41,992 nt of DNA from Betaproteobacteria bacterium HGW-Betaproteobacteria-6. Lineage in GTDB: Bacteria; Pseudomonadota; Gammaproteobacteria; Burkholderiales; Rhodocyclaceae. The stretch is from positions 1 to 41,992 of the forward strand of contig PHCF01000009.1 in the NCBI GenBank assembly GCA_002842145.1, in the 5' to 3' direction. Positions 20,665 through 38,280 of the stretch are shown one piece after another. Made by a program: the position numbers and the translations under genes. The notes beneath the pieces are model-generated. The model had not been told where the DNA came from. It was given only the letters and a program-made list of their open reading frames with translations, and made no database searches. Each line of letters opens with the position of its first letter. Within the stretch, counting starts at the first letter, position 1.

Positions 20665-20982
20665 TCAAACAGCCAGTTGATCCAGACTACCGCCATTGGC
20701 AAAGAATTCTACGACCCATTTTGGCTGACGGCCCCGGCCTGTCCATGCCAGTTCAGAGTTCTGCGGGTGGCGATATTTCACGGCAACAGTGCCCTTCTCC
20801 TTTTTCGTCTTAGAAGAGCTATCCCCCAGCAGATCAGAAAGGCTGAAACCACGCTCAGCAGCAAGAGCTTCGAGATCTCTCAAGGTCTTGGCCTTCTCAT
20901 CTTTTTCCCTACGCTTAATTTCGGCAGGGATATGATTCAGCAGGTCTTTTAGTTGGGCGAGAGTCAGAGAGGAAATATCCAT
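20665..20982 (-). CDS. H-NS family nucleoid protein
   Basis: A 105-residue H-NS-family DNA-binding protein. The N-terminal oligomerisation helix region is MDISSLTLAQLKDLLNHIP followed by a charged coiled coil rich in Lys, Arg and Glu. The C-terminal DNA-binding domain has KYRHPQNSELAWTGRGRQPKW with the TGRGR-x-P minor-groove hook. I start at ATG 20982, which fits the family; an ATG 45 bp upstream adds an untypical leader. It lies between the metabolic block and the accessory island; whether it silences island genes, as H-NS often does with foreign AT-rich DNA, is inference. Confidence 0.93.
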   Translation of the reverse strand: MDISSLTLAQLKDLLNHIPAEIKRREKDEKAKTLRDLEALAAERGFSLSDLLGDSSSKTKKEKGTVAVKYRHPQNSELAWTGRGRQPKWVVEFFANGGSLDQLAV

Positions 20983-21328
20983 AGGGAATCTTTTTTTAAA
21001 TTCGAACAAAGGCTGATTATCGCTCATTTCAGCGACAAATTAGTGGAGTGGAAGCAAAGAGGCATCCAGATAGCGATAGCGGTCATATGAAACAACGCGA
21101 TCCCTGCCTTTAGTACAGGCCGGATGTGTTGCGAGCCGAGCGGCTAGCGCCCCTTCCGTATCTGATAGCCCCAAACGCTAGCTTTCCAATATTCCAGCAT
21201 ACTTTACGCAATACGCGTAATACGAACGACTGGCAATGGCGAATGCTGTTTCATTCCTCTAACTAACGGAGCGCCCATGGGCTTGGCTGATTTCTGCCGG
21301 ATGACTCAGCAGCATGCAATTTAGCCGT
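20983..21328. other. Intergenic region between hns and the SMC operon
   Basis: About 346 bp with no convincing gene. It must hold the hns promoter. A TTACGC-aatac-GCGTAA inverted repeat is at 21204-21220. No tRNA or recognisable integrase attachment duplication is visible, though this is where the metabolic block meets the defence genes. Confidence 0.5.
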
Positions 21329-22201
21329 TTAGCGCAGCAAATGCCGGGTTTCCGGAAGCAGCACCGAGATAAATTCATCGTATTGCCTATCGTACTCTGC
21401 CTCTTTATCGAGATAGGTAAGGAATTTTTCCAGCGTGATTGCCTGTGTTGCCGTGCGCGGAGGTTCGTAGGTCTGCCAGACTTTTAGAAATAGGCGTCGC
21501 AGCGGATGATGCCCATTTTTCCCTCTACATAAAGCTGCCGCCAGAACATTAAATGGGCCATCGAGCCGGCTACCAACGGTTCGTCCCAGTTGAAAAGATA
21601 GGAGCACAGGTAGGACACCTTTGCATCCCCAGAACGCCGGATTAAGCGCCGGAGCAAATTCATCTCGCCAGTAGCGATAGCGGGTTAACCGATAGATATC
21701 AGCAAAGAGTGCCTGCTGTTGGTCCTTGGGGGAACCCGCATCATAGTAATGGGTGGCATGCTCAAGCAATGTGCGCATTGCCTGATCCCAAGACTCATTC
21801 GTATCACAGGGTTGTTTGTCGAGTTTGCTCAGAACCACCCGCTCCCAGGCCCCCTTTAGGCGCAGATGGTGTTCGACCAATTGGCGATCTGGATAACTGA
21901 AATGCCCTCCCCTCACCTGTTCGATGCCATGACGGATCATCATCAAAATGGTGACTTCGTTTTCGAGGTCTTCTGCTTCGCGGGTATTTCGTGTTCCAGT
22001 GTTAATTGCGTGCATCACCCGGCGTGGCTTATGTAGGCGAGTCCATTCTGCACCAAACCCCTCACCGTCCCAGTGTTGTTGCAAGCGCTTGGAAATGTCT
22101 GATGTGAGGCCGACGTAATAGCATCCATCGCTCAACTCAAGAACGTATAAATAGATATCTACGGGGTCAGGAGACCCACACCAAAATGTTTCTGGTTTCA
22201 A
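21329..22201 (-). CDS. GIY-YIG domain nuclease-like protein, fifth gene of SMC operon
   Basis: A 290-residue protein whose N-terminal 90 residues form a GIY-YIG nuclease-like domain. The two motif strands are YLYVLEL (17-23) and YYVGLT (28-33); Arg39 in SKRLQQH and a Glu-rich helix (about 75-82, REAEDLENE) supply the usual catalytic Arg and Glu. The remaining 200 residues are mainly helical, with no recognised domain. The start is TTG at 22201, 15 bp after the Toprim-protein gene, so it is probably the last gene of that operon. GIY-YIG nucleases cut DNA in repair, restriction and homing. A second nuclease beside a Wadjet-like set is unexpected. Catalytic activity is inferred from motifs. Confidence 0.75.
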   Translation of the reverse strand: MKPETFWCGSPDPVDIYLYVLELSDGCYYVGLTSDISKRLQQHWDGEGFGAEWTRLHKPRRVMHAINTGTRNTREAEDLENEVTILMMIRHGIEQVRGGHFSYPDRQLVEHHLRLKGAWERVVLSKLDKQPCDTNESWDQAMRTLLEHATHYYDAGSPKDQQQALFADIYRLTRYRYWRDEFAPALNPAFWGCKGVLPVLLSFQLGRTVGSRLDGPFNVLAAALCRGKNGHHPLRRLFLKVWQTYEPPRTATQAITLEKFLTYLDKEAEYDRQYDEFISVLLPETRHLLR

Positions 22202-22216
22202 TTTTATTCCAGTGAG

Positions 22217-23122
22217 CTAGCGCGGCCTGCAGCGAGCAAATGCCAAATCCCTATCCTGGCTACCTTGATCAGTAAGGAGGCAAGTATCTCGCCCAATCCA
22301 ATACTCTTGTACTACCGCCGAACGGTATTTGAGGATCAAATCAAGTACGCCCCGGCACAGAGCATCTGCTGGAATTCCAGCTATCGCATTCTGGACGCTT
22401 GGGTACTGATTCTGGAAAAGGTCCCTGCGACCTATTTGCGGCGATGATAGCTGCTTAACAAGCGTAGGCAGGTTTGGAGTAACCATTCCTACAAGCCACG
22501 GCAACCTAGCGGCAATAACTACTCCTGCCAGATCGGCATCAACGAAAGCTAGGACTGGCAACTTTGCATCTCCTAGAAACGTCAGAACGTTATCGATGCG
22601 ACTCTCGTATGGATCACCGCGATACACCACCAAAGGAGAACGATATTCCACCGGGAGCTTAAAGCTGGTCTCGTGAATCCGATTGAAGCTCTCGTAGTTC
22701 TCAACCACCATGATGGCGCGATGGCCGATCTGACTGACAATCTTTGTCCAATCCACGTCCAGATGAGACTCTGCCGGTAGGTTGATAGGCTGGCCACCGA
22801 TAACGAGAGCTTGCCCGGCTAGCGCCTTGATCGAGATGCGGTTGCGCTTTACGGCTTCGCCGCCGGCCTTTTCAATGGGCGTAACCTCAAGCCGCTTCGC
22901 ACGACTCATGCCGGTCATATCCACTGGCTTGGTGGAAAACCCCTTGGCTTCCAGCCACTCACGCATCGCCTGACGGTCACGCTCGTTGAAATAGACAGAT
23001 TTGCCGCGTTTGGTGCCGACACCATTATCAACGAGGCGTTGGAGCGTAGCTGTCAAAGTGAAACGCTCGTCCTGCCGAGACAGGATGCGCTGCATGGCTT
23101 CCGCAAGCTTTTGATCGAGCAT
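22217..23122 (-). CDS. Toprim-domain protein, JetD/MksG-like
   Basis: A 301-residue protein with a C-terminal Toprim-like core. Glu141 is in IMVVENYESF, and the DxD pair Asp195/Asp197 is in VLAFVDADLAG, the metal-binding pattern of the Toprim fold. The N-terminal 120 residues are probably winged-helix (QRILSRQDERFTLTATLQRL; FNERDRQAMREWLEAKG). JetD/MksG is the topoisomerase-VI-like nuclease of Wadjet that cuts plasmid DNA. This protein is shorter than common JetD (often about 350-400 residues), and I did not recognise DUF3322 in it. The start codon shares a base with the stop of the upstream gene (TGATG), showing tight coupling. The family link rests on motif and operon context. Confidence 0.75.
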   Translation of the reverse strand: MLDQKLAEAMQRILSRQDERFTLTATLQRLVDNGVGTKRGKSVYFNERDRQAMREWLEAKGFSTKPVDMTGMSRAKRLEVTPIEKAGGEAVKRNRISIKALAGQALVIGGQPINLPAESHLDVDWTKIVSQIGHRAIMVVENYESFNRIHETSFKLPVEYRSPLVVYRGDPYESRIDNVLTFLGDAKLPVLAFVDADLAGVVIAARLPWLVGMVTPNLPTLVKQLSSPQIGRRDLFQNQYPSVQNAIAGIPADALCRGVLDLILKYRSAVVQEYWIGRDTCLLTDQGSQDRDLAFARCRPR

Positions 23123-24339
23123 CAGGCAGCCCTCTTGGAGATCACGACATCCATGATGAGGAGGTTTCCGTCAAAGTCTGGATGCGGCCGAGAGTTCATG
23201 CGCAACTGCCATTTGCCGATCTTGCCCTTATTGTCATGTTCAGCCAGGACGCGGAGAACCCATATCTCCTCCTTGATATTGCCAAGGAATGAAGGATTGA
23301 TGGCCCACCAATCACGTGCCGAAATGCCTTCCGTTGACCGACTGGCTTCCTTGAAATAAATCCGGATCGCCTTGCGGATAGGCGACTCTGGCGGCTGAAT
23401 TTGCTGATTGCCAGGCTCCTCATCCACATTGCCGGCCGGGCGGGCAGTACGGCTCTTGGCTCCAGCCGTGTCTGGAATCGACCTTGCAATCTCTGAGAGG
23501 AGCTCTTCGGCTTCCGAGGCAAATACGTCAGGGTGAGTCTGGATTTCAAGCGGAGTCGCACAACGTAGCCAATCGGCCGGTTCAGCAACTTCATCCCACG
23601 CTTTCGGTTCCCAATCCGGATTGCGGTTCAGGTGCAGAGCAAAAGCGCGAACCCGCTTGGCACGCTCTTCGATCTTACGGAACTCAAAGAGGTACTGGTT
23701 CAGCGTATCCAGGATAGTCCATAGCGACTCGCGGAATGCAGGAATGCGATCTGCCAGCAGTGACTTGAAAGACAGTGCCAATTCCTCGTGCCCGGCCAAC
23801 TGCTCGCCAATATCCGAAAAGTGGAAGCTTTCCAGAAGATTGACCAGTTGTTGAGTTCGCTTCTGGTAGTGGAGGTTCTGGCGCTTCTTCTCGGCGATGC
23901 TCGAAACGGCTGCAAAGCGCGTGGAGACTTGGGCTTGAAGGATGATCAGTTCATCGTCGATGGCATCGGCAATATCGCTGATGGCTTCCCGTGTTTCTAC
24001 TTCGTAGCGCTCGCAATCAGCATCACGCCCTTCCTGATAGGCCACAGAATGGCCCTCAACCAGATCGGACAGGCGCTGAAAATAGCCTCCGATGTTGGCC
24101 CCTATCGAAAACAGCCGCTCGGTGTTGAGCGCCGCATTCAGGAAATGGCGGAAACTAGCCCGTAGCTGGAAGGCGTCCCTGATGTCCGGCGACAGGAGAC
24201 GAAGATGCCGCAAACGTTCGATGTCGCGGAAGTTCTCCTCGGTCTTGTGAACACGACCTTGATAGTAGGCTTCGGCAACCGTCTTGCTGCTCGCACTTAG
24301 CTTGGCGAGTAGCGTGAGGACTGGGTCGATGTTGCTCAC
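23122..24339 (-). CDS. Kleisin-like subunit (JetA/MukF-like) of the SMC complex
   Basis: A 405-residue, mostly helical protein. The N terminus resembles a winged helix (VLTLLAKLSASSKTVAEAYY), and a long helical middle (about residues 60-230) could serve as the MukF/JetA dimerisation and neck-binding region. A Pro/Glu-rich linker (about residues 285-310, with SPIRKAI after it) leads to a C-terminal domain with strands near WQLRMNSRPH and LLIMDVVIS. I saw no enzyme motif. Size and position between the KITE-like and Toprim genes are what one expects of the kleisin. It overlaps the upstream gene by 4 bp (ATGA). Assignment is by context and secondary-structure appearance; sequence similarity to DUF3375 is not obvious. 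Confidence 0.6.
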   Translation of the reverse strand: MSNIDPVLTLLAKLSASSKTVAEAYYQGRVHKTEENFRDIERLRHLRLLSPDIRDAFQLRASFRHFLNAALNTERLFSIGANIGGYFQRLSDLVEGHSVAYQEGRDADCERYEVETREAISDIADAIDDELIILQAQVSTRFAAVSSIAEKKRQNLHYQKRTQQLVNLLESFHFSDIGEQLAGHEELALSFKSLLADRIPAFRESLWTILDTLNQYLFEFRKIEERAKRVRAFALHLNRNPDWEPKAWDEVAEPADWLRCATPLEIQTHPDVFASEAEELLSEIARSIPDTAGAKSRTARPAGNVDEEPGNQQIQPPESPIRKAIRIYFKEASRSTEGISARDWWAINPSFLGNIKEEIWVLRVLAEHDNKGKIGKWQLRMNSRPHPDFDGNLLIMDVVISKRAA

Positions 24340-24980
24340 AGGAGCCCCCGCTGCTCTGGCGCATCCTCCTGATCCTCTGCTGCTGGATCGGCAATTCCTT
24401 CGTTCTGAGCCGGGTCCATGAGAAATTCGATCACTTGATAGTAGTAATCGATCTTCCCCGTGAAGCGGTAGGACTCTTGCTCGCGATTGACCAGAATCAG
24501 GTAGCCCCAGCGCTCCATTTGCTGGATAACCTTGTCCAGCATTCCCTTCGCTGATGCGTCGGTGACGGTGAATTCCTTGCCCATTGTGGCAAATTCGCGC
24601 AGCACCTCGAAGAGGTGGGGATTCTCGGTGACAGCCTTCAGAAGCACCGCATAGTCCAGACGGTCACCGGCTGCCGGGCTGGAGTCCTTCTTCTCCACCT
24701 CCATGCACAGATTGATGAAGTGGATGACCGGACGAATCATCTGTTTGATGTTGGCAAAAACACGCTTTACCTCAGAGCGCTCATCGGAACCGACACGCTT
24801 CCAGGTCGCGTAGTAGGCGACGCCATTCGGGGTCTTGGTCAGACGACGCCCGATCCTGTCGAGGTAAGTGGCAACATCCTGCCGTGACTCCTCGGAATTG
24901 AGCCAACGGAAGGCGTCAGGCGCAGTCGATTCACAGATGAACTTGCCTTCGAGCAGGCGAATGGTGACCTGGTCAAACAT
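24336..24980 (-). CDS. KITE-like subunit (JetB/MukE/MksE-like) of the SMC complex
   Basis: A 214-residue protein with the size and gene position of a MukE/JetB subunit. Predicted tandem winged-helix content includes DYAVLLKAVTENPHLFEVLREF and a second unit with KGMLDKVIQQMERWGYLILV, followed by a strand-turn (YRFTGKIDYYYQVIEFL). The C-terminal tail is strongly acidic (DPAAEDQEDAPEQ). It overlaps the SMC gene by 8 bp and the kleisin-like gene by 4 bp, so the complex parts are translationally coupled. There is no catalytic motif; in the family this subunit binds the kleisin and DNA. DUF4194 membership is plausible but not verified. Confidence 0.65.
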   Translation of the reverse strand: MFDQVTIRLLEGKFICESTAPDAFRWLNSEESRQDVATYLDRIGRRLTKTPNGVAYYATWKRVGSDERSEVKRVFANIKQMIRPVIHFINLCMEVEKKDSSPAAGDRLDYAVLLKAVTENPHLFEVLREFATMGKEFTVTDASAKGMLDKVIQQMERWGYLILVNREQESYRFTGKIDYYYQVIEFLMDPAQNEGIADPAAEDQEDAPEQRGLL

Positions 24981-27900
24981 GGGCTTCCTCCTCGTCGTCC
25001 TCTACTTCGTCATCAAGGTTTATCAAGCCGACCTTGCGGCCCGGGAGAATCTTGTAGTTGCGCTCGAACAGCTCGGCTAGGTCAAGATCGATATCCGGGA
25101 AAGCCGAAATCATGGTGATATTGTTCCGCGTCAGCAGATCGAGCAGCGTTTTGGCATTGGCGAAACTCAAGTCCTTCAGCTCGTCCACGACGAAAGGCAC
25201 GACAACGTTCTCTGAACGGCGAATCCGGTTCACGAAGCCAATCAGGATCACACAGAGAATGATGTAACTCAGACCGTTACTACTGATGTTGGCCAGCTCG
25301 TGTTCATTGCTTGCTGTTTTCACCCCTTGATTGTTCACGTTGGCACTGATCTTCAGGCTGATGAGATCAACCGGGTCAGCAACCAGCCCCTTGTCCTCAC
25401 CAACGACAAGCGCTACTTGCTTGGCGGCATCGACAAAGCTGGCAGGCGGCAATGCTGGATCACCATTGGTGTGCCAAGTTTCGTATTCGCGATGCAGGTT
25501 GCCAACCGCTTCCCAGTAGCCCTGAGTATCGACCTCGGCCCGGATTTCCGTGCTGACATCGGCAATGCTGTCGAAGATTTGGCCTTGTTCCAGATTAGCT
25601 CGCAAATCGGTCGCGAAGGTGCTGACGTTACGTTTGAAGTCATCGAGACTCTTCCAGAAGTAGGAGATGTTCTGAGCAAGCGTCTTTCCGCGCTGGAGAA
25701 GGTCTGTCCGGTTCGTTTCGTGTTCGTGCTGGAACCAAGTGCGGAATACTTCAATCCACTCGTGCTCCATTCCCGGGCGCGGATAGCCTGATGCCGCCAC
25801 GGCGCTTGCATAGAACTTCTCGGGGCCGGTACCAACAATCGAAATCATCTGCCGGCGAATTTCTTCAACACCTTGCCGAATCTTTTCCCGGAAACTATCA
25901 AGGTCTGCCATCAAGCGGCGACGCTCGGCCACTAGAGCGTCGATATCGGGAATCTGCTCGAAACCGGCCTTCAGGGTTTCCTGATCTTGCGGCCAATGCA
26001 CCAGATCACGTGTTTGGCCTAAAGCGAGAATGCGCCTTCTCTCGTGTTTATTGATCGTCTCACCGATCTCCTTGATGACAGCCTGTTTCTTATCGGTGAC
26101 TTCCTTGCGCTCACGGAGCACATCTTCGCTCTCGCGCTTCAGGCGAGCGGAATCAGCATCTGCTGTTTGCCGGTCCTGTAAGTGTGTTGGCCGTTGAGAC
26201 CACAAGGTATCGAGCCAGTCACGATACTGAATCACCTCTGAGCGTAGCTTGTTGGCTTCGGCAATCTGGCCGTCCAGTTTGGAAATGCGCCTCCGGAGTC
26301 CATTGAGGACATCGGTTGAATAACCCTTGTCGCGCAGGCTGGCGTCGCGATCTTTGGCGATCTGGGCGACTTTGGCAGCCAAGTCGGCATCGATAGTCCT
26401 CTTGCGGGTATCGATCTCATTGAGCGCGTTTGTCTCTTCGGACTTTAGTTGAACGAGGTTTGCGGTATGTAGCGTCTCAACCTCTTCTATTTCTTTGCGG
26501 TGATCCTTCTTGAGCGATTCCAGCGCCTGAACAGCCAAGGAAAGATTCTTGGCGCAAACATCAAGGTCTCCTTGGGCTTTTGTGGCTGCCGCCTTTTTGC
26601 TTTGCTCGACTCGGAGAAGTGCAGTCTTTACCGCAGTATCGGCAGACAGCTTCCGGTTCTTTGCTGTAGCGATGGCGGCATCGTGAAGGGTAATGGCGGT
26701 CTTGGCCTTATCCATTGCCTCCTTCTTCTTTATCAGGAGTTTCCTGTCTTCTGCCACCTCCCCTTTCCGGGTTGCCAGCCTAGTCCTAACCAGCTTGATT
26801 TCCTGCTGGATAGCTTCTTCGGAGGAGTAGCGACCCGCCTTGAGTTGCTCCAGATCGATGGTTACTCCGTACAGATCGCGACCATCGCCAAGAACCGGGG
26901 CCAGATCAGTCCTCAGTAGCGTTTCTGGAGAGACCACACGTCCGATGTCGGCAGCCCAGTTCGGCTTATTCCGGCGCAAGAAACCGAGGAAGGTGTCGTC
27001 TCCAGCAGCATCGGCGGCTAGCAGTTCTTCAAGTTCTGCCTCCGCTTTCTCGATGGCGTTTTCACCTTCGTTGACCTGCAATTCCAGATCGTCGTATTCG
27101 CGCTTAGCCTTGCTGTAGGTCTTTTGGAGGCCATCAGTCTTGTCGTGGAGGTCGGTCAGATCAGTGTTAGCGGCGGATTGTTTCTGCCGTTCGATTTCCA
27201 GTGCTTGAATGGTCTCCGGGTCAGCCTGGATTTTTTTGACCTCGACCTCCAGCCCGGCTTTTTGGGTCTTGAGGTCTGTGACTTTGATGTTTGCTGCGTC
27301 GAGTTCTGGCTCATGGCGCAACCGGATCGCCTTGAGATTTTCCCCGTGAGCATCACTGACTGCTTCCTTGCGCTTTCCGAAGGACTCGTAGATGCCGGGC
27401 TTCTTGTCGTCTAGCTCAGACTTCTGATCGCGTGCCTGATTTCTGGCCTCTGTTTCCATTGCCGTGAACGTCTCAGTCAGCGACTTTACCTCTCGCTCCA
27501 AGTCATCCAACTGCTGCTTGAGCGGCTTCAGTTCAGCTTCCCATGCAGCAATCGAATCGACTTTCGTTATCTTGCCGGCGATATCGTCCGTCTCATATTT
27601 GCGCTTCCGGGCATCCAATTGCTCGATGGCCTGGCGAGCCTGCTTGGCGCGGGAGTCTGCTGCAATCTTTGCATCCGAAATGGTTTGCAGGCGCTTTCTG
27701 TACTCTTCCTCGGTCTCGGTGAGGTCAGACTTGGCCCGCTCCTCGGCTTTCTCACCTTCTACAACCTGTTCTTGAAAGTAGTCTTGAAGTAACTGGAACT
27801 TCGCATGGAGGGTCGTAAATTCATGATTGATCAGCAGGCGACCTTGATCGGCCTGCTCCAGATCAGCCATGACCGGCGCTTTTTCCATCACTTGACGATG

Positions 27901-28590
27901 GGCTTCGTGTTCATTGAGCCAGTGCTGCAAGTCACGCCGGCCAGTGCGGAGTGCAAAGACCTCGTCACCATTCAGGACGGACGACACAATCATCTTCTTC
28001 AGATCGTGGAAGGTGGTTGCACGCTGAAGGATGCCGGTGACCACACGCTCAAGATGGGTCAGTTTCCCGGTGCCGCCCGTGAAGGAAAAACGTGCGGCCA
28101 AGTTGCGGTGTTCACGGCCGGCTGTGTTCTGAATGATCTGCCGATAAACGTGGAGTGTCAGCGGCTTCGAGTCGAAAACGCCCTGCTTGTCGAGATGCCG
28201 ATAGAGGTCGCGAGTCTGGACAACCTGCCCTTCGTGCTTGAACAACGCCGGCTTGTACTCGCTATCGATCAGGCGATAAACCACGCCTTCGCCGCTCTGG
28301 CCATCTGGATGAATCACAGCCATAGCCTTATGTGTCCGGCGCAGATACTCGAAGATGACGTAGGAGCCGGTAGTCGGGAAATAGTAGCTGCCGAAACGCT
28401 CTGTGACTGCATCACCGCGAATGATCCGTGAAGGGCTTTCACCGAAGAACATTGGCAGTAGGCGCAGCAAAGTGGTCTTGCCCGCACCGTTTTCGCCATT
28501 GATGGTGATGTGTCCGTTGACATCGAGTTCAACGATGCGGCTGCGGCAGTAGGAATCGATCAGGATGATACGAGTAAGTCGGAAGTCCAA
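24973..28590 (-). CDS. SMC-like ATPase, JetC/MukB-like
   Basis: A 1205-residue SMC-type ATPase. Walker A is GENGAGKT (32-39) in the N-terminal head (about 1-230). Two long coiled-coil arms (about 270-525 and 600-950) flank a small hinge (about 533-595; TFLGFLRRNKPNWAADIG and LYGVTIDLEQL). The C-terminal head carries a degenerate signature SSNGLS (1103-1108) and Walker B FVVDE (1133-1137) followed by LKDLSFANAK. The tail is highly acidic. It is probably a motor that loads on or extrudes DNA. The start is TTG at 28590 with AAGAGG upstream. It begins the operon, whereas the SMC gene comes third in canonical jetABCD. It resembles DUF3584-type ATP-binding proteins. The LSGGQ-like motif differs from standard SMC proteins. 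Confidence 0.85.
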   Translation of the reverse strand: MDFRLTRIILIDSYCRSRIVELDVNGHITINGENGAGKTTLLRLLPMFFGESPSRIIRGDAVTERFGSYYFPTTGSYVIFEYLRRTHKAMAVIHPDGQSGEGVVYRLIDSEYKPALFKHEGQVVQTRDLYRHLDKQGVFDSKPLTLHVYRQIIQNTAGREHRNLAARFSFTGGTGKLTHLERVVTGILQRATTFHDLKKMIVSSVLNGDEVFALRTGRRDLQHWLNEHEAHRQVMEKAPVMADLEQADQGRLLINHEFTTLHAKFQLLQDYFQEQVVEGEKAEERAKSDLTETEEEYRKRLQTISDAKIAADSRAKQARQAIEQLDARKRKYETDDIAGKITKVDSIAAWEAELKPLKQQLDDLEREVKSLTETFTAMETEARNQARDQKSELDDKKPGIYESFGKRKEAVSDAHGENLKAIRLRHEPELDAANIKVTDLKTQKAGLEVEVKKIQADPETIQALEIERQKQSAANTDLTDLHDKTDGLQKTYSKAKREYDDLELQVNEGENAIEKAEAELEELLAADAAGDDTFLGFLRRNKPNWAADIGRVVSPETLLRTDLAPVLGDGRDLYGVTIDLEQLKAGRYSSEEAIQQEIKLVRTRLATRKGEVAEDRKLLIKKKEAMDKAKTAITLHDAAIATAKNRKLSADTAVKTALLRVEQSKKAAATKAQGDLDVCAKNLSLAVQALESLKKDHRKEIEEVETLHTANLVQLKSEETNALNEIDTRKRTIDADLAAKVAQIAKDRDASLRDKGYSTDVLNGLRRRISKLDGQIAEANKLRSEVIQYRDWLDTLWSQRPTHLQDRQTADADSARLKRESEDVLRERKEVTDKKQAVIKEIGETINKHERRRILALGQTRDLVHWPQDQETLKAGFEQIPDIDALVAERRRLMADLDSFREKIRQGVEEIRRQMISIVGTGPEKFYASAVAASGYPRPGMEHEWIEVFRTWFQHEHETNRTDLLQRGKTLAQNISYFWKSLDDFKRNVSTFATDLRANLEQGQIFDSIADVSTEIRAEVDTQGYWEAVGNLHREYETWHTNGDPALPPASFVDAAKQVALVVGEDKGLVADPVDLISLKISANVNNQGVKTASNEHELANISSNGLSYIILCVILIGFVNRIRRSENVVVPFVVDELKDLSFANAKTLLDLLTRNNITMISAFPDIDLDLAELFERNYKILPGRKVGLINLDDEVEDDEEEAHV

Positions 28591-28612
28591 AGCTGGCCTC
28601 TTGGTGGCAAGA

Positions 28613-28653
28613 TGTTATCGTTAATGACATGTTATCGCATGAGATAAATGACA
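28613..28653. promoter_or_regulatory. Tandem repeat upstream of the SMC operon
   Basis: The unit TGTTATCG-n-AATGACA occurs twice: 28613-28629 with a 2-bp spacer and 28630-28653 with a 9-bp spacer. It lies 22 bp upstream of the SMC start codon, so it probably overlaps the promoter. A repressor site for the operon is likely; no regulator gene adjoins it. Confidence 0.5.
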
Positions 28654-29029
28654 CTCGCACAACAGGGTAACCGATACATTCCCGACCGAGTAAAGCAGGG
28701 TTCAAGGCAAGCAGTGTCGGAACTGAGGAAATTGGGGTTGGTCCTCTTCCCTACTTTGTCGGACATTGCCCCCCATAGGTCTGGAGTTCGGTACCAAAGC
28801 AGTCTTTCATTGATCCAAATGGCAATGACTGCTTTATAAAAAATTCCGGACTCGCTCCGAACTTGATAGGCGCCGTGGGCATCCCCGCGACGCTGACCTA
28901 TGACATGCTGGTGCCAGTCGCACCTTCGACCCCTGACGCCGCAGCGAAATATTCCGATAGGGTTCGCCGCCAATGCCTGGGCTATGATGCTGGGAAACGG
29001 AGCACCATAGAACAATCTTGGGGGAAAAG
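28654..29029. other. Intergenic region before the HNH gene
   Basis: About 375 bp without a convincing gene. A 63-codon plus-strand frame from 28648 has no recognisable product. An imperfect hairpin (28796-28835: outer arms AAAGCAGT/ACTGCTTT, inner arms CATTG/CAATG with a 4-nt bulge) is followed by ATAAAAAATT. The promoter of the HNH gene should lie here. Confidence 0.4.
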
Positions 29030-30523
29030 ATGGGTATTACTTGCATCGTGTGCGGCCTAGCTGCGGGCTCGGGGGAACACGTCTTTCCGGCGGCGCTCGG
29101 CGGGCGGCGAATCAACAGTAAAATCTACTGCACCAAGCATGACAACGGCTATTCCAGTTTGGTCGCGGAACTGGCCAATCAAGTGGATGTCCTCAATGCC
29201 ATGTTGGGCGTAGTCCCCGACCATTCCAAGAATGTCAAAAGCGTTCTTGCCCGCGACGCCAACACTGGCGAGGAGCTGAGGCTCTCAGCCAAGGAGAGCG
29301 TCTTCACAGCGCCGCGCGTCATCTCCCAAGAACCAGCGGGAAACGGCGTGCTCATGAAGATGTCGTTCCCCAACCGGGAGGCGATGAAGCAGTGGCTGGC
29401 AGAGCAAAAGGCCAATGGCCTCGACGCGACGCCGCTGCAAAAGGCGCAGGAGCAGACCTATTTCTTAGGCGAAGTCCACCACCAGCGGCGTTTTGGCGGA
29501 CCGTACGGCCTCGGCGCGGTGGCGTATGTCACCCAAACCTTCTTGGCCCAGGCATTCCCAGATTTGGCGCGTTCCGGCGACGTGGCGCAGTTCATCGCCT
29601 ACACGCAGGCCATCGCAGCCCTCGCCCAGATTCGAGGCGGTTGTGGCGAGGCTACGGATGGACCGGCCGATCCGAGGTTGGAGCCGGCGCGCCAAGCGCT
29701 CGAAGCCGCGCTCGCGCCTTGGGGCGGTCAGGCTCCTGTCTGGTGGGATTTCGAGCCGCAACCCGACGCGACGCCCAACGCCTTTGAGTTTGGCCACCGC
29801 GTGACGGTGGGGGTCGATGCGTCGGATGGGCAAATCTTTGGGCGCTTCTCACTGTTCTCGTCGATCCATTTCGGCATGCACTTTGGGACGGTAAGCGCTG
29901 GTGCCGCGACCAAGAGCGTGACGGTGGACATCGACCCGATGGCGGCGCATACGCCCAACGACATCAAGAAGGTCGAGTCCGCCTCGGCCATCGCCCGAGT
30001 GGCGGTGCCAGCCCAGCCCACGGAAGGCCTAGCCGCCGCGATTTCTAGTGGGAGCCAGGCGGTAGTGTTCACGGACTTGATGCGCAAAATCGAGGCTCAT
30101 TCGTTGGCCAAGTCAGCCGCCAAGATGCATTCTGAGCTCACCGCCTATTCGACCCTGTCGGAGTTTGAAGGCGAGCAGCTCGTGGATCGTTTGATCGATG
30201 GGCAGGCGCAGCGCGTATTGAACATGGCCAAGTGGGTGCTGCAAGGGTTCAAGTCTCGACTTCCGGCCGAGTTGCTCCCTGCGCTCGGGCCGATGATCGA
30301 CGCAATGACTGCCTACGATCCGAGTTCAACCAACGGGCTTTCGTCCATGGCGAATGCGACGCTAGCTCTCGCCAAGGGTGCACTGGCCGCGCAGATGCGT
30401 GAGGACATTAAGGCTGGCCGCCTCGACGAGCGCCGCATCGCCGAACTGATGGGCGATGGGCCCGGCGCAGCAGTGGTCGGCCAGGCCATTTTGGCTCCGA
30501 TTACCCAAGCTCCGGGTGGCTGA
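29030..30523 (+). CDS. HNH-type zinc-finger nuclease-like protein
   Basis: A 497-residue protein. Its N terminus has a treble-clef HNH-like arrangement: C5-x2-C8, Glu16-His17 in GEHVFPAALGG, then C34-x2-H37 and Asn39 in YCTKHDNGYSSL. These are candidate zinc ligands and HNH active-site residues. The remaining 450 residues have no recognised domain; the C-terminal half is helical and Ala-rich. I use ATG 29030, with GGGGGA just upstream; TTG 29018 is an alternative. The gene is clearly more GC-rich than its downstream neighbours, suggesting separate ancestry. A 60-bp gap separates it from the HEPN-like gene, so the two probably form an operon. Nuclease activity is inferred only. Confidence 0.7.
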   Translation: MGITCIVCGLAAGSGEHVFPAALGGRRINSKIYCTKHDNGYSSLVAELANQVDVLNAMLGVVPDHSKNVKSVLARDANTGEELRLSAKESVFTAPRVISQEPAGNGVLMKMSFPNREAMKQWLAEQKANGLDATPLQKAQEQTYFLGEVHHQRRFGGPYGLGAVAYVTQTFLAQAFPDLARSGDVAQFIAYTQAIAALAQIRGGCGEATDGPADPRLEPARQALEAALAPWGGQAPVWWDFEPQPDATPNAFEFGHRVTVGVDASDGQIFGRFSLFSSIHFGMHFGTVSAGAATKSVTVDIDPMAAHTPNDIKKVESASAIARVAVPAQPTEGLAAAISSGSQAVVFTDLMRKIEAHSLAKSAAKMHSELTAYSTLSEFEGEQLVDRLIDGQAQRVLNMAKWVLQGFKSRLPAELLPALGPMIDAMTAYDPSSTNGLSSMANATLALAKGALAAQMREDIKAGRLDERRIAELMGDGPGAAVVGQAILAPITQAPGG

Positions 30524-30583
30524 GGAGCCGCAGGTGACGGATTGCAGCTCGGCTACATATTGAATAGAAAAAAGGGGGAAACG

Positions 30584-32026
30584 GTGGCGATACAAAAAAT
30601 AAGCTTGGAAGATGACGACTTCAAATTGGCGTTTATCCAAGGCACATTGGCAATCGATTGTCTTGAAATCACGTTGACGCAGAATGCTACCGACAATCCA
30701 AGAATCTATACGGCGGCAGGCTCAATCTTCGCAAGCCCAGAGAACGGGACCGAGGCGCGATTGGTGTGGAAGAGAGACGAGCATCATCCATACGATCAAA
30801 TCGCGACTCTCAATGCGATGTTGCGAGTCCAGTCAGGCGAGCTCATTCCAGCTGATCACTACTTTTCTCTGAGAGCTGTGGACATTGCCGGCAACTGCTG
30901 GACGCATCCCGCTGTTCTGTTGAAGCGCGATGAAATGCAGCAAGCGGAGATTCTTACTGTCGCTTGCGACTCCATTCAGGTTGAGATCGCATCCGACGTC
31001 AAGCGAACCCTCGTGCATTACGTCTTCAATGACGACCTTGAAATGCCGATGAACGTTTCACTGCCATCGCAGGATGTAATTCGAGGAAGAAGGCGCCTGT
31101 TGATCAAAAATCGCGTGTCTGCCGGCGTGGTCGATGGCATGGATATCAGCTACTACCAGGTCAGCGCCGACAAGGCCGGCAACTCGTATGAGTTTGCGGC
31201 TGTGGTGCAAGTTGGCACAGAGCAGCCCTCAGATTTTCACGCAAGATTATTGGAAGCTATTCAATTTTGCGTGGCAAAACATGCTTGGCCCATCATGGAA
31301 GAAGTAATCCAAGGCGGCAAGCAGATCGTCACTTTGTCCAAATCCATTCCATTCAACAACGGTCTGGTTTCTAGTCCTCTGCCGAGCCATGCGTCGGAAG
31401 AGTTCTATCGCCTGATGGAGTGCTATTACCGGTATTCGTGCTCGGAGGCCAACGGGGTGGATGCCGCCCCGCTGTCCAAGAAGGTCGGCGGACTTTTTAC
31501 GCTCAAGGGCGTCTGGATCGACACCATCGCTCTGTTGTTGAGCGTTTCGGTGGAGAGCGTTCTGCAAGACCCGATTTTCAAGAACCTGGGAAAGCCAGAC
31601 AAAGGGCTCAAGGCATTGATCAACAAGCTGTTTGATTGGGTGAAACAAGCTCCGGTCGATGAGGACTTGATTGGACGAGCGACGTCCGCGATGGGCACTA
31701 TGAAGTCGAACCGAGCGGTGGACAAGATGTTCGTCTTGGCAAAGGCCGGGGTGATTGACGAGGATGAGATCAAGGCCTGGAAGGCTTTGAGAAATCCCAC
31801 CGCGCACGGCAGCTTCGAGCTAGACCCCGCGAAGTTTCAAGACTTGCTGGACAACGTCTATAAGCTTGTCGCCATGATCTACAAACTCGCGTTCTTCCGG
31901 GTTGGCTACGTCGGAAAATTCTCGAACTACGCCGCGCGGGGATGGCATGAGGCTCACTTTGATGCCGCGGCCTGCAAGGCGGGGCTAGATATGCTTGATT
32001 CAGCCAGCGCAGCGACCTGTGGCTGA
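30584..32026 (+). CDS. Large protein with C-terminal HEPN-like R-N-x3-H motif
   Basis: A 480-residue protein of unknown family. The N-terminal 230 residues are rich in beta strands and resemble a sensor or binding domain. The C-terminal region is helical and contains KALRNPTAHGSF, with Arg403 and His408 forming the R-x4-H motif of HEPN ribonucleases; helices flank it on both sides as in HEPN folds. Similar LRN-xx-AHG motifs occur in ApeA-like and other abortive-infection proteins. The start GTG at 30584 has AAGGGGGAAA before it; an in-frame upstream start at 30542 is less likely. It follows the HNH gene in the same direction. Predicted to cut RNA when triggered, but this rests on the motif only. 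Confidence 0.6.
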   Translation: MAIQKISLEDDDFKLAFIQGTLAIDCLEITLTQNATDNPRIYTAAGSIFASPENGTEARLVWKRDEHHPYDQIATLNAMLRVQSGELIPADHYFSLRAVDIAGNCWTHPAVLLKRDEMQQAEILTVACDSIQVEIASDVKRTLVHYVFNDDLEMPMNVSLPSQDVIRGRRRLLIKNRVSAGVVDGMDISYYQVSADKAGNSYEFAAVVQVGTEQPSDFHARLLEAIQFCVAKHAWPIMEEVIQGGKQIVTLSKSIPFNNGLVSSPLPSHASEEFYRLMECYYRYSCSEANGVDAAPLSKKVGGLFTLKGVWIDTIALLLSVSVESVLQDPIFKNLGKPDKGLKALINKLFDWVKQAPVDEDLIGRATSAMGTMKSNRAVDKMFVLAKAGVIDEDEIKAWKALRNPTAHGSFELDPAKFQDLLDNVYKLVAMIYKLAFFRVGYVGKFSNYAARGWHEAHFDAAACKAGLDMLDSASAATCG

Positions 32027-32302
32027 CCAGACTGAATTACCGCACTATAGGCGAGAATGCTGCCGCTTTTTCAGGATGAACCGATGACGGCTTCATGTCA
32101 CGCACCGCAAACCGGATGATGCTGCATCACTGTTGTCTCGCCTCTTAAATGGTGAAACCAATCTATTGCCCCCGCACATGACCAATCTCAGCCTTGCAAC
32201 TGAGATGCAGTAGAATCGAACGTTTTTCTGGCCAAGCACCTGATCACAGGACAGCAACGGTAGATAGCAGTGCTAAGGCGTCCGACACAGGGTATAGGGA
32301 TA
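32027..32302. other. Gap between HEPN-like gene and sce7726-like gene
   Basis: About 276 bp without a gene. It includes a 7-bp stem ATCTCAG/CTGAGAT with an 8-nt loop (32185-32206), possibly a regulator site or a weak terminator without a T-tract. The base composition falls sharply to AT-rich after this point, hinting at a junction between separately acquired modules. Confidence 0.45.
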
Positions 32303-32863
32303 GTGAACCAATTGATTCTTGACGACAAGACGATTAGAAAATCATTGATCAAGCGTCTGTCGCAGCAATCACCAGCTCCGAAAGCCTTACTTGAGGAATT
32401 GCGAGTTCACAATGGCAATGCAATTGCTGACGTTGTCACCGTTCATTCTGCAGCACACTGCTATGAGATCAAGGGGGAGACCGACTCTATCTACCGAATC
32501 TTGAGGCAGAGTCGCTATTTTGACCTCGTATTTGAAAGAATTACCCTTGTTACGGTCGCCCGGCATACAGATAATGCCTTACGCCTAGCTCCACCACACT
32601 GGGGAATTATGGTCGCCAAGCAACGATCAGAAGAAATATCCATAAGTCACGTTCGGGCGGCATCTCTGAGCCCACTCTTTGACAAAAGGCTTGCACTTTT
32701 GACGCTATGGAAATCGGAAATGGTCGAAGTCGCTGGTGATAGCACCATCGAAAAACCAGAAAAACTAAACCGAAGTGAATTGTCAGATATTCTCGCGTCC
32801 ATGCTAAGCAAGGACTCCGTCAATAAAAGCATTGGCGAGAAACTAAAATCCAGAAACAGTTAA
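32303..32863 (+). CDS. sce7726-family protein, PD-(D/E)xK nuclease-like
   Basis: A 186-residue protein (GTG start at 32303) matching the sce7726 pattern: an early Glu (ALLEELRVHNGN), then IADVVTVHSAAHCYEIKGETDS with Asp43, Glu55 and Lys57. This is the D-xn-E-x-K core of the PD-(D/E)xK fold. The following RILRQSRYFDLVFERITLVTV is also family-typical. sce7726 genes often neighbour sce7725/beta-family genes in accessory regions, and here the convergent gene is a beta-family protein. The stops of the two genes share a TTAA. The function is unknown; a DNA-processing or defence role is plausible. The upstream in-frame start at 32270 is an alternative. Confidence 0.75.
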   Translation: MNQLILDDKTIRKSLIKRLSQQSPAPKALLEELRVHNGNAIADVVTVHSAAHCYEIKGETDSIYRILRQSRYFDLVFERITLVTVARHTDNALRLAPPHWGIMVAKQRSEEISISHVRAASLSPLFDKRLALLTLWKSEMVEVAGDSTIEKPEKLNRSELSDILASMLSKDSVNKSIGEKLKSRNS

Positions 32864-33945
32864 AGCAAAGACAAATAATCTCTGACCATAAAAGTCATAT
32901 GGGCATTTATTGTTGGTTTTAAAATACTGCTTGGAGTAACCTTTTTCCCCTGTCCGTGGGCTTTTTGAAACAAGAATAAGCTGCCAAAGGAATATTCTGG
33001 CCCACGATAAAATGGCTGACCAATCAAGTGTGCAGCAATGTCGTTATATTGTAGGTCGCCTCTAGCATGTGTCTTCAACGCTCCACCACGCGCCACATAA
33101 TGTACGTTGGCATGTGAGTAAAAAATTTTTGGGGTCATGATATTACGCATCGCCGCTGGTGGAATTTTAAACTCCGAATACAACGGACTTACGATCGTGT
33201 AGTCACCCAAGGTAAGGCTTGTTCCAGACAAATGCTTGCTAGCACTTTCGTATATCTCCAGTTCAATCCGTTCATAAGTTCCCTCTGATTCAACCTCAAG
33301 AAGATCCTTGATTGATGCGGGTATCGATGACCCAGTAACGATGATGTCATCAAAGCCAAAGGCCGCCATACTTTCCTTTACGAAATGAACGATCTGCCCT
33401 GCACGTGTTGCGGCATCAACATTTGCACAAACTCGATTATCTAAAACCAGAATCCAATGATGAAACAGACCTTCGCCCAGTTCGATTAAGTCAAAAATTT
33501 CATCACGAACCAAGTCAAAACTCAAAAAATCCTCTGCGAGCAACCTAATCGCCACAACATTTGCACTGATTATTCCTGACGCTTTGTACTGGAATACCAA
33601 TTTATTTCTCTCATCAGTACGGTCAAGCCCAATGACCGGTATGAAGCTGAGGTTTTTGAAGCTCTCCATAACATAGGCGTAATTATTTTTGCCGTTGATA
33701 TGTAGTGCGTCATCAATATCGAAGTTGTCCAGAAAGAAGGTGTAGCCAACGCCCAAATTTCTTTCGACACTCCGTGCAGCTTTATCGACTAGCGCAATGA
33801 ATGCGTCTTTGTTAGCACCATCCTTTTGTTTTGGAAGGTCAAAGAAAGGTGTAACAAATTTCTTTACTTCACCACTCAGAGCCCCAAGTGCCCCAATCTC
33901 ATTTACTTTGATCTTGAGAAAGGGTACGTAGTTATTCATTGCCAA
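32860..33945 (-). CDS. Beta-family protein (DUF4365-type neighbourhood, 'beta protein')
   Basis: A 361-residue protein resembling the phage-derived 'beta protein' family, which is probably a TIM-barrel-like fold. Features are the N-terminal YVPFLKIKVNEIGALGAL, VTPFFDLPK, YTFFLDNFDIDD, FIPVIGLDRTDE, ILVLDNRV, the late tryptophan-poor YTIVSPLYSEF, and the C-terminal FYRGPEYSFGS and NAHMTFMVRDYLSLL. It overlaps the ImmA/IrrE gene by 14 bp and is the last gene of the GNAT-ImmA-beta triplet. The start is TTG 33945 or ATG 33939. No biochemical function is established for the family. The DUF4365 reference in the call is only a loose association with such neighbourhoods, not a domain claim. Confidence 0.7.
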   Translation of the reverse strand: MAMNNYVPFLKIKVNEIGALGALSGEVKKFVTPFFDLPKQKDGANKDAFIALVDKAARSVERNLGVGYTFFLDNFDIDDALHINGKNNYAYVMESFKNLSFIPVIGLDRTDERNKLVFQYKASGIISANVVAIRLLAEDFLSFDLVRDEIFDLIELGEGLFHHWILVLDNRVCANVDAATRAGQIVHFVKESMAAFGFDDIIVTGSSIPASIKDLLEVESEGTYERIELEIYESASKHLSGTSLTLGDYTIVSPLYSEFKIPPAAMRNIMTPKIFYSHANVHYVARGGALKTHARGDLQYNDIAAHLIGQPFYRGPEYSFGSLFLFQKAHGQGKKVTPSSILKPTINAHMTFMVRDYLSLL

Positions 33946-34783
33946 AGAGAATCTCCCTAACGTTGACCTCGTTAACGATCCGTGAAAATAACTCGTGCCG
34001 GTTAAGATCCTTTCGAATTCGTCCGGCCACGATGGCGGGATGCACGCCTACCTTACTGGCAAACGAAATGACGTCAGCTTCTTCAAGCGAATACAACGCT
34101 TGGCAACTTCTCCAATCACTTCGGCTGATCAGTGCATTGCTCGCCACACGGTTGGCCGCAAGTTCGACCAGATCTTCATCTTCATTTTCGAGATCATCCA
34201 GGATCGGCGTTACCAGCATCTCATAATGCTTGCTGATATGTGCCAATTCATGCATCAACGTAAACCAGAAGTTGTCCAACCTCGCATAACGTAAGCTAAG
34301 TCCAACGACCGGATTCCCAGTCGCCAAGTTAAAAACCGCACCATCTAACTTCATGCCAGGAATGGATGGTTCGAATACAACAAGGATCCCATGCTCAAGC
34401 AATATCTGGTCAAGACGATTTATGTTGCCAATATCGACGCTCAGTTGTGCGAACTCTCTTAGCTGAGTGGTGTTTAGCCCTTTGAAAGGCGGTACTTCGT
34501 TCAGCCCTCCATAGATCTTTGCCAATTCCTTGACTCTCGAAAGCCAAAGCAATAGCAAAGCATCGTTGGCATCATCTCGTTTCCGAAATAGCGTTTGCTT
34601 GCAGGAGCGAGCCTCATGCACCTCCTTCAGCATCTTGAAAAAGGCGAAGTCCCGATCCACCCCAAGGATTTTTCCTGGAATGTTTCTGACCAACTTTTCA
34701 CATTGAAGGAAAGAGTCGTACAACTCAAAGGCGTCTGTAGCTGCGGAGAGAACAGGAAAATCGTTTAGCTCGTTGATTTCCAT
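33932..34783 (-). CDS. ImmA/IrrE-family metallopeptidase
   Basis: A 283-residue protein with the zinc-peptidase motif HELAH (178-182) preceded by WFTLM and followed by an acidic stretch (LENEDEDLVELAANRVA) that supplies the third ligand and the Asn/Ala-rich helix of the family. The N-terminal 150 residues are helical. The C-terminal part (EEADVISFASKVGVHPAIVAGRIRKDL) is typical of the ImmA tail in antitoxin-like proteins (often annotated as HigA-type). The start is immediately after the GNAT stop (TAGATG). ImmA/IrrE enzymes cleave regulators in mobile-element and stress systems. The substrate here is unknown; the XRE regulator at 37890 is one candidate. Confidence 0.88.
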   Translation of the reverse strand: MEINELNDFPVLSAATDAFELYDSFLQCEKLVRNIPGKILGVDRDFAFFKMLKEVHEARSCKQTLFRKRDDANDALLLLWLSRVKELAKIYGGLNEVPPFKGLNTTQLREFAQLSVDIGNINRLDQILLEHGILVVFEPSIPGMKLDGAVFNLATGNPVVGLSLRYARLDNFWFTLMHELAHISKHYEMLVTPILDDLENEDEDLVELAANRVASNALISRSDWRSCQALYSLEEADVISFASKVGVHPAIVAGRIRKDLNRHELFSRIVNEVNVREILFGNE

Positions 34784-35470
34784 CTATGCCACCACAAGCT
34801 TTTGCGCCAAATCTTCAGGCATTTCGAAGTAAAAGAGCTTTTCTTTGTCAGCGGGAACGTGTCTCACCATCCCTAGGTCTTGGTAATATGGCATCGCCCG
34901 CTGAATAGCGTGTAAGGAGAATCCATATCGTAACTTGAGGTGGTTTCGTCCATAATTAACTGCATACCTCATCAGTTCCGTGGCGACTCCCCGAATTGCG
35001 CGATTTCGCATCGGATTAGTGCGATTCCATGGTGCTGCTGCGAGGTATTCGACATAAAAAATGTCCCCGGAGGAAATACAACTCGGCTTGGGGTGATAGA
35101 TCAGACAAGCCCCCTGAGGGTAACCCTCCGCCATCACATAGAACCAGTCGTACTCTTCACTGTTGTAGTGCAATGTTTTAGCAAGCCAATCCCAGTGATG
35201 GTCATCAATCTGGACCTCGCTCAACACTTTGTGAAGCGTCGCCTCATCGTAGTTTTGGTTCTTGATGAAGTGCAGCATTTGGACGGTGAACACACCCCAA
35301 GTCTTGTCGCATAAATAGGCCTTTACCGGGTCCCATCCATGATGCAGTGCATACTCGACAGGCTCACCGTCAGGGGTAAAAAGAGTCCCTTGAGAGACAA
35401 TATCTGCGGATTCGGGCGCAATCCCCTCATCCGCAATCAATTTCCTGATTTCTGCGACAGTGAGTCCCAT
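34784..35470 (-). CDS. GNAT-like acetyltransferase domain protein
   Basis: A 228-residue protein. The C-terminal half has the layout of a GNAT fold: strand EYDWFYVMAEGYPQGACLIYH, strand GDIFYVEYLAAAP, then NRAIRGVATELMRYAVNYG (acetyl-CoA binding helix region, lacking a perfect R-x2-G-x-G/A), followed by LKLRYGFSLHAIQRAMPYYQDLGM with the tyrosine-rich end. The N-terminal half (about 1-110) is an unrecognised helical domain. It is tightly coupled to the ImmA/IrrE gene. Such proteins may be toxins that modify tRNA or protein, or plain modifiers; neither is shown. The next gene upstream is 110 bp away, so the triplet may have its own promoter. Confidence 0.7.
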   Translation of the reverse strand: MGLTVAEIRKLIADEGIAPESADIVSQGTLFTPDGEPVEYALHHGWDPVKAYLCDKTWGVFTVQMLHFIKNQNYDEATLHKVLSEVQIDDHHWDWLAKTLHYNSEEYDWFYVMAEGYPQGACLIYHPKPSCISSGDIFYVEYLAAAPWNRTNPMRNRAIRGVATELMRYAVNYGRNHLKLRYGFSLHAIQRAMPYYQDLGMVRHVPADKEKLFYFEMPEDLAQKLVVA

Positions 35471-35580
35471 ATGGCTTAAGCAGTCAATGACATCTGCAAT
35501 ATATTACATCGTACTCATCATGATCTGCCAAGGAAAATCCAGCAAGGCGTTAGTTCAAAGCGACTTTCTAACACTTATCG

Positions 35581-36036
35581 CTATGCATTTCTTCCCAGAA
35601 GCCAGTTCCAGAAAGCCTTCAACAAATCGCCAATTGAAGATGAGTTTGAATGTTTCAAAGCTTCTTCGTCCGAGTTTCGGCTCTGATCCATCGCAATCCT
35701 ATGCATCGCATCAATCGAGGCCTTATCACGACTGAACACGGCTGCCATTTGGCGATCAGTCATTCCGCCAGCCCAAACGATACGGTTATTTCTTATCACG
35801 TAGTGCGACTTGCATGCCATGGACCAGTTTCCAATTGACGGATGCAATGTTGCCTTTCCATCGACAAGTCTCAAATCCCATTCAGCTGGTGATAAAGGGG
35901 TTACTACTTTTTCGCCACACCCGCAGCAGCACAGGTGAAGAGCCAGCTTATATTTGAAGCTAATATAAAGAACCCCCGGACTCAGTTCTTTGGGCGCTAA
36001 CTCCACAACTTGTGGCGTAACTTGCTCAACTCGCAT
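35581..36036 (-). CDS. DUF6527-family zinc-binding protein of the ubiquitin-like operon
   Basis: A 151-residue protein that fits the DUF6527 family. It carries Cys36, Cys38 and Cys40 in LHLCCCGCGEK, then WSMACKSHYVIRNNRIVW with Cys75-x2-His78. These are probably zinc ligands in a treble-clef or RING-like arrangement. The last 50 residues are helical, ending in AFWNWLLGRNA. The start ATG at 36036 has a strong GGAGGGGGAG site and overlaps the E1-like gene by 11 bp. DUF6527 genes recur beside bacterial E1-like and multiubiquitin genes, so an E3- or substrate-adapter role is a reasonable guess but not shown. Confidence 0.75.
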   Translation of the reverse strand: MRVEQVTPQVVELAPKELSPGVLYISFKYKLALHLCCCGCGEKVVTPLSPAEWDLRLVDGKATLHPSIGNWSMACKSHYVIRNNRIVWAGGMTDRQMAAVFSRDKASIDAMHRIAMDQSRNSDEEALKHSNSSSIGDLLKAFWNWLLGRNA

Positions 36037-37460: not shown

Positions 37461-37503
37461 TTGAATTCCTTTTCAGACAAAAAATTTATGCAGCTGTGGA
37501 GAA

Positions 37504-37725: not shown

Positions 37726-37771
37726 AACTACTCCTTTTGATGAAATTGACTTTCGCTGCATCAACACAACA

Positions 37772-37791
37772 TTGTTCGTTATATCGATACA
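37772..37791. promoter_or_regulatory. Operator-like repeat, copy 1, between DUF2188 and XRE genes
   Basis: TTGTTCGTTATATCGATACA, which matches 18 of 20 bases with the copy at 37840-37859. Each has TGT at one end and ACA at the other, a partial dyad. It lies 46 bp upstream of the DUF2188 start, where it could block that promoter. Probably bound by the adjacent XRE protein. Confidence 0.6.
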
Positions 37792-37839
37792 CAACTGCAG
37801 AATACGAGCAACCAAAAGTAATGTCAACTCGATTCATTT

Positions 37840-37859: not shown

Positions 37860-37889
37860 ATCAGTCTTTCATCATCACAGGAGAGTGGC

Positions 37890-38228: not shown

Positions 38229-38280
38229 CCCCGCAACACCAGAAAAATTACAAAGACATATATACAACTAGGAGGAACAG

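Follow-up and report, generated by a model that had tools for sequence, protein, structure and literature searches.

Type I Wadjet systems (JetABCD, also known as MksFEBG or EptABCD) are encoded by four tightly packed genes in the order kleisin-KITE-SMC-Toprim. Passages of PMC10586767 describe JetABCD, its total-extrusion model, and JetD with its CAP and Toprim parts, a passage of PMC10123090 states that the mksFEBG order is conserved in Gram-negative carriers, and a part of PMC8649781 deals with Wadjet, recognised via COG4924, in the cargo of Tn7-like elements. Here we analyse an operon in a 41,992-nt stretch of DNA (positions 1 to 41,992 of contig PHCF01000009.1, hereafter the window) from Betaproteobacteria bacterium HGW-Betaproteobacteria-6, in which homologues of the type I SMC, KITE and Toprim proteins are encoded in a different order, SMC-KITE-kleisin-Toprim, followed by a gene for a GIY-YIG endonuclease-like protein. 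We consider it likely that the first four genes encode a Wadjet-like SMC-nuclease complex that cuts small circular DNA and represents an apparently undescribed branch, with the GIY-YIG gene as an accessory. No description of an SMC-first Wadjet-like family was found in the open-access literature, most subscription papers and preprints lying outside the scope of this search.

An SMC-first operon with a conserved Toprim nuclease

An earlier annotation of this DNA (hereafter the original prediction) had listed five minus-strand open reading frames (ORFs), all of which are there. The JetC/MksB-like SMC ATPase (24973..28590, 1205 aa) starts at a TTG codon with AAGAGG upstream, and is followed by the JetB/MksE-like KITE subunit (24336..24980, 214 aa), a putative kleisin in the JetA/MksF position (23122..24339, 405 aa), the JetD/MksG-like Toprim nuclease (22217..23122, 301 aa) and the GIY-YIG endonuclease-like add-on (21329..22201, 290 aa). 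By these coordinates, the SMC/KITE, KITE/kleisin-like and kleisin-like/Toprim junctions overlap by 8, 4 and 1 nt, respectively, and a gap of 15 nt separates the Toprim and GIY-YIG genes.

When genome contigs were searched with the Toprim protein, matches appeared in Azonexus hydrophilus (L009, 94%) and in a Rhodocyclaceae metagenome-assembled genome (L010, 47%). DUF7281, the Pfam family of the window Toprim (PF23947, 4.6e-21), exceeded its cut-off in 12 of the 398 genomes drawn from the phylum (13 at E 0.001); within the window's family, 8 of the 297 genomes gave strong Toprim matches (12 at E 0.001). An operon was counted as complete when all four genes were found, which makes the resulting count a test of their order and not of their presence. 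The four genes have the same order and strand in 40/40 complete operons (the window, 31 further loci and 8 from one genus), so that the SMC-first order pointed out in the original prediction is family-wide and no quirk of the window's genome. Most of these operons were located via the Toprim gene, and they are not independent because the 8 from one genus were chosen out of 37 matches. The interrupted or partial loci L072, L136 and L137 and the weak-match loci L035, L036, L037, L120, L121 and L122 were left out of the 40; L113 and L118 duplicate L069 and L009 and were excluded from the counts; and G565, a genome with a weak Toprim match, is not among the fetched loci.

In a plasmid collection, tblastn found the Toprim protein in 14 records and the KITE protein in 19, making a union of 20 records, of which 17 were fetched (NZ_CP015514, NZ_CP062152 and NZ_CP097357 were left out). 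The KITE records have a median length of 360 kb (18/19 are at least 107 kb) and come from 10 named genera; we suspect that some large Vibrio records in the collection may be second chromosomes. Although the KITE search is blind to the nuclease, each of the 16 plasmid loci fetched by it has a following Toprim gene, as the window does, and 14 of the 16 carry the complete operon. Searches with the Toprim and kleisin-like proteins found no viral relatives, and a viral search with the SMC returned one cut-off SMC fragment (L079) and one weak match (L080).

The SMC protein belongs to Pfam DUF3584 (PF12128, E 2.8e-189) and is an ATPase of the JetC/MukB kind, with a Walker A motif (G32-K38-T39), a signature (S1104-N-G1106) and a Walker B motif (D1136-E1137). 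In an alignment of family members, G32, N34, G37, K38, S1104, G1106, D1136 and E1137 are invariant in 32/32 SMCs, and K85, E141, N142, R168, G169, D195 and D197 in 35/35 Toprim sequences. The Walker A, Walker B and Toprim E/DxD motifs and the SSNGLS signature reported for the window are present, with key residues that do not vary among its relatives; the non-canonical signature is itself a family trait, since S-x-G is kept across the 32 SMCs (the remainder varies). The KITE protein matches Pfam MksE (PF21980, 1e-11) above cut-off and DUF4194 below cut-off.

In profile comparisons by hhalign, the SMC aligned to type I JetC at 96.7% over 77 columns of the C-terminal head, the KITE protein to JetB at 89.4% over 169 columns, and the Toprim protein to JetD at 95.4% over 79 columns of the Toprim core, with the E and DxD nuclease residues aligned. 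Mismatched pairs of Jet subunits all gave 1.3% or less in the same comparison. The KITE protein thus groups with JetB, and the Toprim protein, with its catalytic E and DxD, with the JetD-type nucleases.

Comparison with Wadjet and other SMC systems

The reference set consisted of eight Wadjet loci (L131-L133 and L142-L146), of which two were typed as JetA1-D1 by PADLOC and the others were taken from annotation or from profiles built from the typed ones. In a PDB search, JetD from L132 found the solved MksG/JetD chains 8b7f, 8q72 and 7til. The A-B-C-D order is present in 8/8 reference loci (the SMC match in L145 being merely a 212-aa piece) and in none of the 40 complete operons described here. 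Further differences from type I Wadjet are the SMC signature, which we read as SGGQ in the L132 sequence and which is S-N-G-L in this family, and the Toprim protein, which in the window has ~300 aa, belongs to DUF7281 and shows no DUF3322 or DUF2220 in Pfam. The original prediction had been unable to recognise DUF3375 or DUF3322 in the window proteins, and Pfam agrees. Over cut-off, DUF3375 was found in 0/18 carrier genomes; a single sub-threshold match of 51 residues lies elsewhere in the window's genome, on a different contig.

The PADLOC-DB 2.0 models, which represent Wadjet types I-III, gave no confident Jet match for the window proteins: the best E-values were 0.003 for JetD1, 0.0036 for JetB1 and 0.0041 for JetC3, with none for JetA. 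Placement of all four genes inside a known Wadjet type that invariably has this order, an outcome that the original prediction had counted against itself, is thus not borne out. An NCBIfam scan of the window proteins found nothing above cut-offs. Among other family members, 20 Toprim proteins gave scattered matches to JetD1, JetD2 and JetD3 models (best 4.1e-6, JetD3; the commonest models match 3/20), 19 KITE proteins gave matches to JetB1 models (best 3.6e-5; the commonest models match 7/19), and 22 kleisin-like proteins gave no JetA match; the only SMC scanned was that of the window.

The operon also shares features with MksBEF and MukBEF, as the KITE protein matches the MksE family and the C-terminal head of the SMC aligns to Escherichia coli MukB at 72.6%. 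It differs from them in its nuclease gene, as the Toprim gene accompanies the operon, whereas a MukBEF or MksBEF condensin would have no dedicated nuclease partner, and MukE (0.7%) and MukF (1.0%) were not matched. The Toprim protein weakly resembles topoisomerase VI A/Spo11 (Pfam 0.0032; PDB 2zbk, 0.51), and no evidence of the CAP part was found.

A Wadjet/MksBEFG-like composition, as originally predicted, is supported by profile matches for the SMC, KITE and Toprim proteins; the kleisin-like protein was matched by no method. The third gene lies between the KITE and Toprim genes in 40/40 complete operons, and is called a putative kleisin for its position and conserved linkage only. The window protein has no Pfam family, and family members gave only scattered, single-member Pfam matches; a PDB search with its profile gave nothing but unrelated helical proteins; and AlphaFold models had a mean predicted local distance difference test score (pLDDT) of 44.7 for the protein alone and 43.5 with three sequences, giving no usable fold.

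Several findings weigh against reading the operon as Wadjet-like. No method recognised a kleisin in it, and the third gene did not match JetA (0.3%) or MukF (1.0%) in hhalign. The alignments of the SMC and Toprim profiles span only the 77 columns of the C-terminal head and the 79 columns of the Toprim core, and for the CAP domain, which in JetD lies N-terminal to Toprim, there was no DUF3322 match in Pfam and the alignments reach the Toprim part only. With only two sequences on the reference side, the Toprim (46.3%) and SMC (80.7%) matches were weaker and that of KITE was absent (1.3%), and the kleisin-like protein gave 2.7%. In the PDB, the Toprim and KITE profiles missed the solved JetD and JetB chains (E up to 1), and the SMC profile missed the solved JetC chains among the best 60 of 97 matches (E up to 0.1); type I JetD, unlike the Toprim profile of this family, does find the solved JetD chains. 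The distribution adds to these points. A 40-kb circular Acinetobacter plasmid bears the operon, with a transposase gene ending 104 nt before the SMC gene, and although large carrier plasmids are in line with a system that leaves large circles intact, their size carries little weight as evidence, since a long plasmid has more genes in any case. The Toprim gene is also common in one genus of the same class, that of G050, where 37 of 41 genomes have it (partially in G810, G820 and G822). All four genes were inspected in 11 genomes of this genus (L031-L033 and L149-L156) and in L034 from a sister genus; within the genus, one or more upstream neighbour genes are shared at 82% identity or more in 7/11 operons (counting L032, the reference) and a downstream neighbour, some kb away, in 8/11. 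Near-fixation of this kind is not typical of defence systems and would accord with a role on the chromosome.

The GIY-YIG gene and the surroundings of the operon

The GIY-YIG protein comprises a catalytic domain (about residues 14-105) and an uncharacterised C-terminal part. The motif named in the original prediction was recovered by Pfam above cut-off (GIY-YIG PF01541, 1.4e-5), residues 11-105 match PDB 1zg2 (E 1.2e-8), and by our own reading of the sequence the superfamily's pattern of Y-x-Y and Y-x-G motifs with a following R and E is present, the residues being Y17, Y29-V-G31, R39, H43 and E80. The catalytic domain resembles those of UPF0213-type GIY-YIG proteins, such as 1zg2, from which the window protein differs by ~185 extra C-terminal residues; in the collections searched, these occur only in the window, in A. 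hydrophilus and in a remnant in genome G523.

By phmmer and by tblastn (the latter covering 51 fetched loci, with duplicates and non-operon loci included), a full-length GIY-YIG gene was found behind 2/40 complete operons, those of the window and of A. hydrophilus, where it is probably co-transcribed behind the Toprim gene. Among the 398 genomes of the phylum and the 297 of the family, only G000 and G650 have it at full length (G650 is evidently A. hydrophilus again), and the seven matching records in the plasmid collection match solely around the catalytic domain. The remnant in G523 (L119:9849-11362) is frameshifted, covers codons 80-290 and lies directly beside an ORF that we read as a transposase; no other operon genes were found there within the 20 kb fetched. 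Since the gene is present behind only 2/40 operons, it is an add-on and not a subtype marker, and the reading of it as the mark of a new subtype, which the original prediction had offered beside that of a separate SMC-nuclease defence family, was rejected. Confinement to the window's genome, which that prediction had also held to be unfavourable to it, is nearly what was observed, the exceptions being A. hydrophilus and the remnant in a third genome.

A 62-bp block just outside the operon is shared by the window (28714-28775), L009 (3557-3618) and L119 (8631-8692), with 87% identity between the window and L009 and 79% between L009 and L119; it may be the end of an insertion or have a regulatory function. 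The SMC leader of the window contains a pair of GATAACAT repeats 17 nt apart (28612..28636, minus strand). They are also kept in A. hydrophilus, there beside a divergent WYL regulator gene, and are a probable candidate operator. Of the 27 complete operons scanned, four (L009, L112, L117 and L027) have a divergent WYL-like gene upstream of the SMC gene, with the WYL domain confirmed by Pfam in L009, and the annotation of the interrupted L136 also shows a WYL gene upstream. The window has no upstream WYL gene, and the best match in its own genome is 34% over 74 residues.

The window copy is chromosomal in appearance, with enolase-like and pyruvate-kinase-like genes, by our reading, at lower coordinates. 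Downstream of the GIY-YIG gene, an H-NS-like protein is encoded by the next larger ORF (20665-21027). On its other side, the operon adjoins a defence island (28632-41084) with a cll-like protein, PD-Lambda-2 B and C, ThiF/DUF6791 with DUF6527, a helix-turn-helix gene, a kinase and tetratricopeptide-repeat pair (PDC-M71A/B) and a weak HNH match (0.0085, below cut-off).

Other loci showed different settings. The Azospira plasmid pAZI09 (L068; 397 kb, conjugative) carries the operon ~6.6 kb from the type IV CRISPR genes csf1, csf2, csf3 and csf5. On an IncC plasmid of Enterobacter hormaechei (L136), an IS256-like element splits the SMC gene, and the operon adjoins a Tn7-like TnsD gene, the WYL gene and genes resembling CBASS (cyclic oligonucleotide-based anti-phage signalling system). 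In L035, L036, L037 and L121, a distant DUF7281-type Toprim lies near shorter SMC-like genes (905-998 aa), which overlap the Toprim gene in L036; perhaps these represent a second, two-gene architecture.

Alternative readings, proposed activity and implications

If the GIY-YIG nuclease were required, the operon would encode a true five-subunit system and a new two-nuclease subtype, which we think improbable. The window and A. hydrophilus have all five genes in common as one block, with similarity ending ~8 nt past the GIY-YIG stop codon and ~80 nt before the SMC start, and these genes seem to travel together in this lineage because the surroundings of the block differ. The ratio of nonsynonymous to synonymous substitution rates (dN/dS) between the two is 0.05-0.18 across the five genes, GIY-YIG included (0.175 overall), and the 3' remnant beside the transposase-like ORF in G523 looks as if a similar block had once been there. 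These observations would favour a five-subunit system, but 38/40 complete operons lack the gene, and so does the nearest relative, L112, which is from the same genus. A midpoint-rooted FastTree phylogeny of 32 concatenated operons places the window and A. hydrophilus as sisters, consistent with a single gain in their ancestor. The synonymous rate dS of GIY-YIG is 0.13, lower than in the other four genes (0.33-0.54), and its dN/dS reaches 0.34 in the first 100 codons, which include most of the catalytic domain (few changes: 5 nonsynonymous and 4 synonymous). The lower dS would suggest a separate, later arrival of the gene, yet identity along the block is a mosaic with no step at the Toprim/GIY-YIG border. 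No recurrent fifth gene or nuclease family was found in 10 ORFs scanned downstream of Toprim in other operons; these ORFs belong to mixed families or to none.

It is also unlikely, in our estimate, that the operon encodes a second, chromosome-organising condensin of the MksBEF kind, whose Toprim partner would act in DNA repair or topology. The near-fixation in the genus of G050, the neighbours conserved in many of its 11 operons and the naming of the KITE protein as MksE by Pfam all speak for such a role; the condensin would be a second one because a canonical SMC scores over cut-off in 9 of the 11 carrier genomes tested, including three of this genus, and together these findings make it a live rival. 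Elsewhere, however, the family is sporadic, as in the 12 of 398 genomes given above, and the operon is found on plasmids and, in the window, within a defence island. The nuclease residues are kept not only in the 35/35 Toprim sequences but also in all 12 checked in or near the genus of G050 (L031-L034 and L149-L156, 4 of them also among the 35). A third alternative is an anti-phage SMC-nuclease of the Lamassu kind, which would sense phage DNA and kill the cell; in a passage of PMC10586767, Lamassu consists of LmuB with LmuA and LmuC. The PADLOC LmuB model does match residues 672-1114 of the window SMC (1.6e-9). Two reference JetC proteins match the same model equally well (1.7e-9 and 5.3e-10), so that the match probably reflects the coiled coil. 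Lamassu, moreover, is not known to have a KITE subunit or a JetD-like nuclease, both of which are present in this operon, and the Lamassu reading, which we hold to be very improbable, was rejected.

For the Wadjet-like complex that we favour, the following mechanism can be proposed. The SMC-KITE-kleisin motor would load on DNA and extrude loops. On a small circle, extrusion would run to completion and paired motors would meet, and this meeting would release the Toprim dimer, in which E141, D195 and D197 would hold the metal, to cut the circle. Small plasmids would thereby be lost, while the chromosome and large plasmids would be spared. The GIY-YIG protein would be a recently acquired accessory endonuclease that may cut or degrade the same target, the core family managing without it. 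Judged from sequence, the family probably restricts small circular DNA, and the operon has a good chance of acting as Wadjet does; it departs from Wadjet in both the gene order and the models, and its kleisin is unproven. A more far-reaching idea, possible but rather doubtful, is that of a fourth Wadjet type, with SMC first and a DUF7281 nuclease, which would escape present defence models, would act from large plasmids against smaller competitors and would have been domesticated on the chromosome in at least one genus, with Azonexus recruiting the GIY-YIG nuclease to finish off the linearised plasmid.

We conclude that the conserved Wadjet-like SMC-nuclease family, undescribed in the literature searched, is real, and that the extra nuclease of the window is a local add-on. 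Because the PADLOC Wadjet models match the family only weakly, it may go unnoticed when plasmid defence is surveyed. With a small Toprim protein and an unrecognised kleisin, it provides a natural compact version in which to ask what switches the nuclease on, and the GIY-YIG add-on offers a direct comparison between five-gene and four-gene operons. The near-fixation in one genus raises the question of whether a motor directed against plasmids can be drawn into the maintenance of the chromosome.

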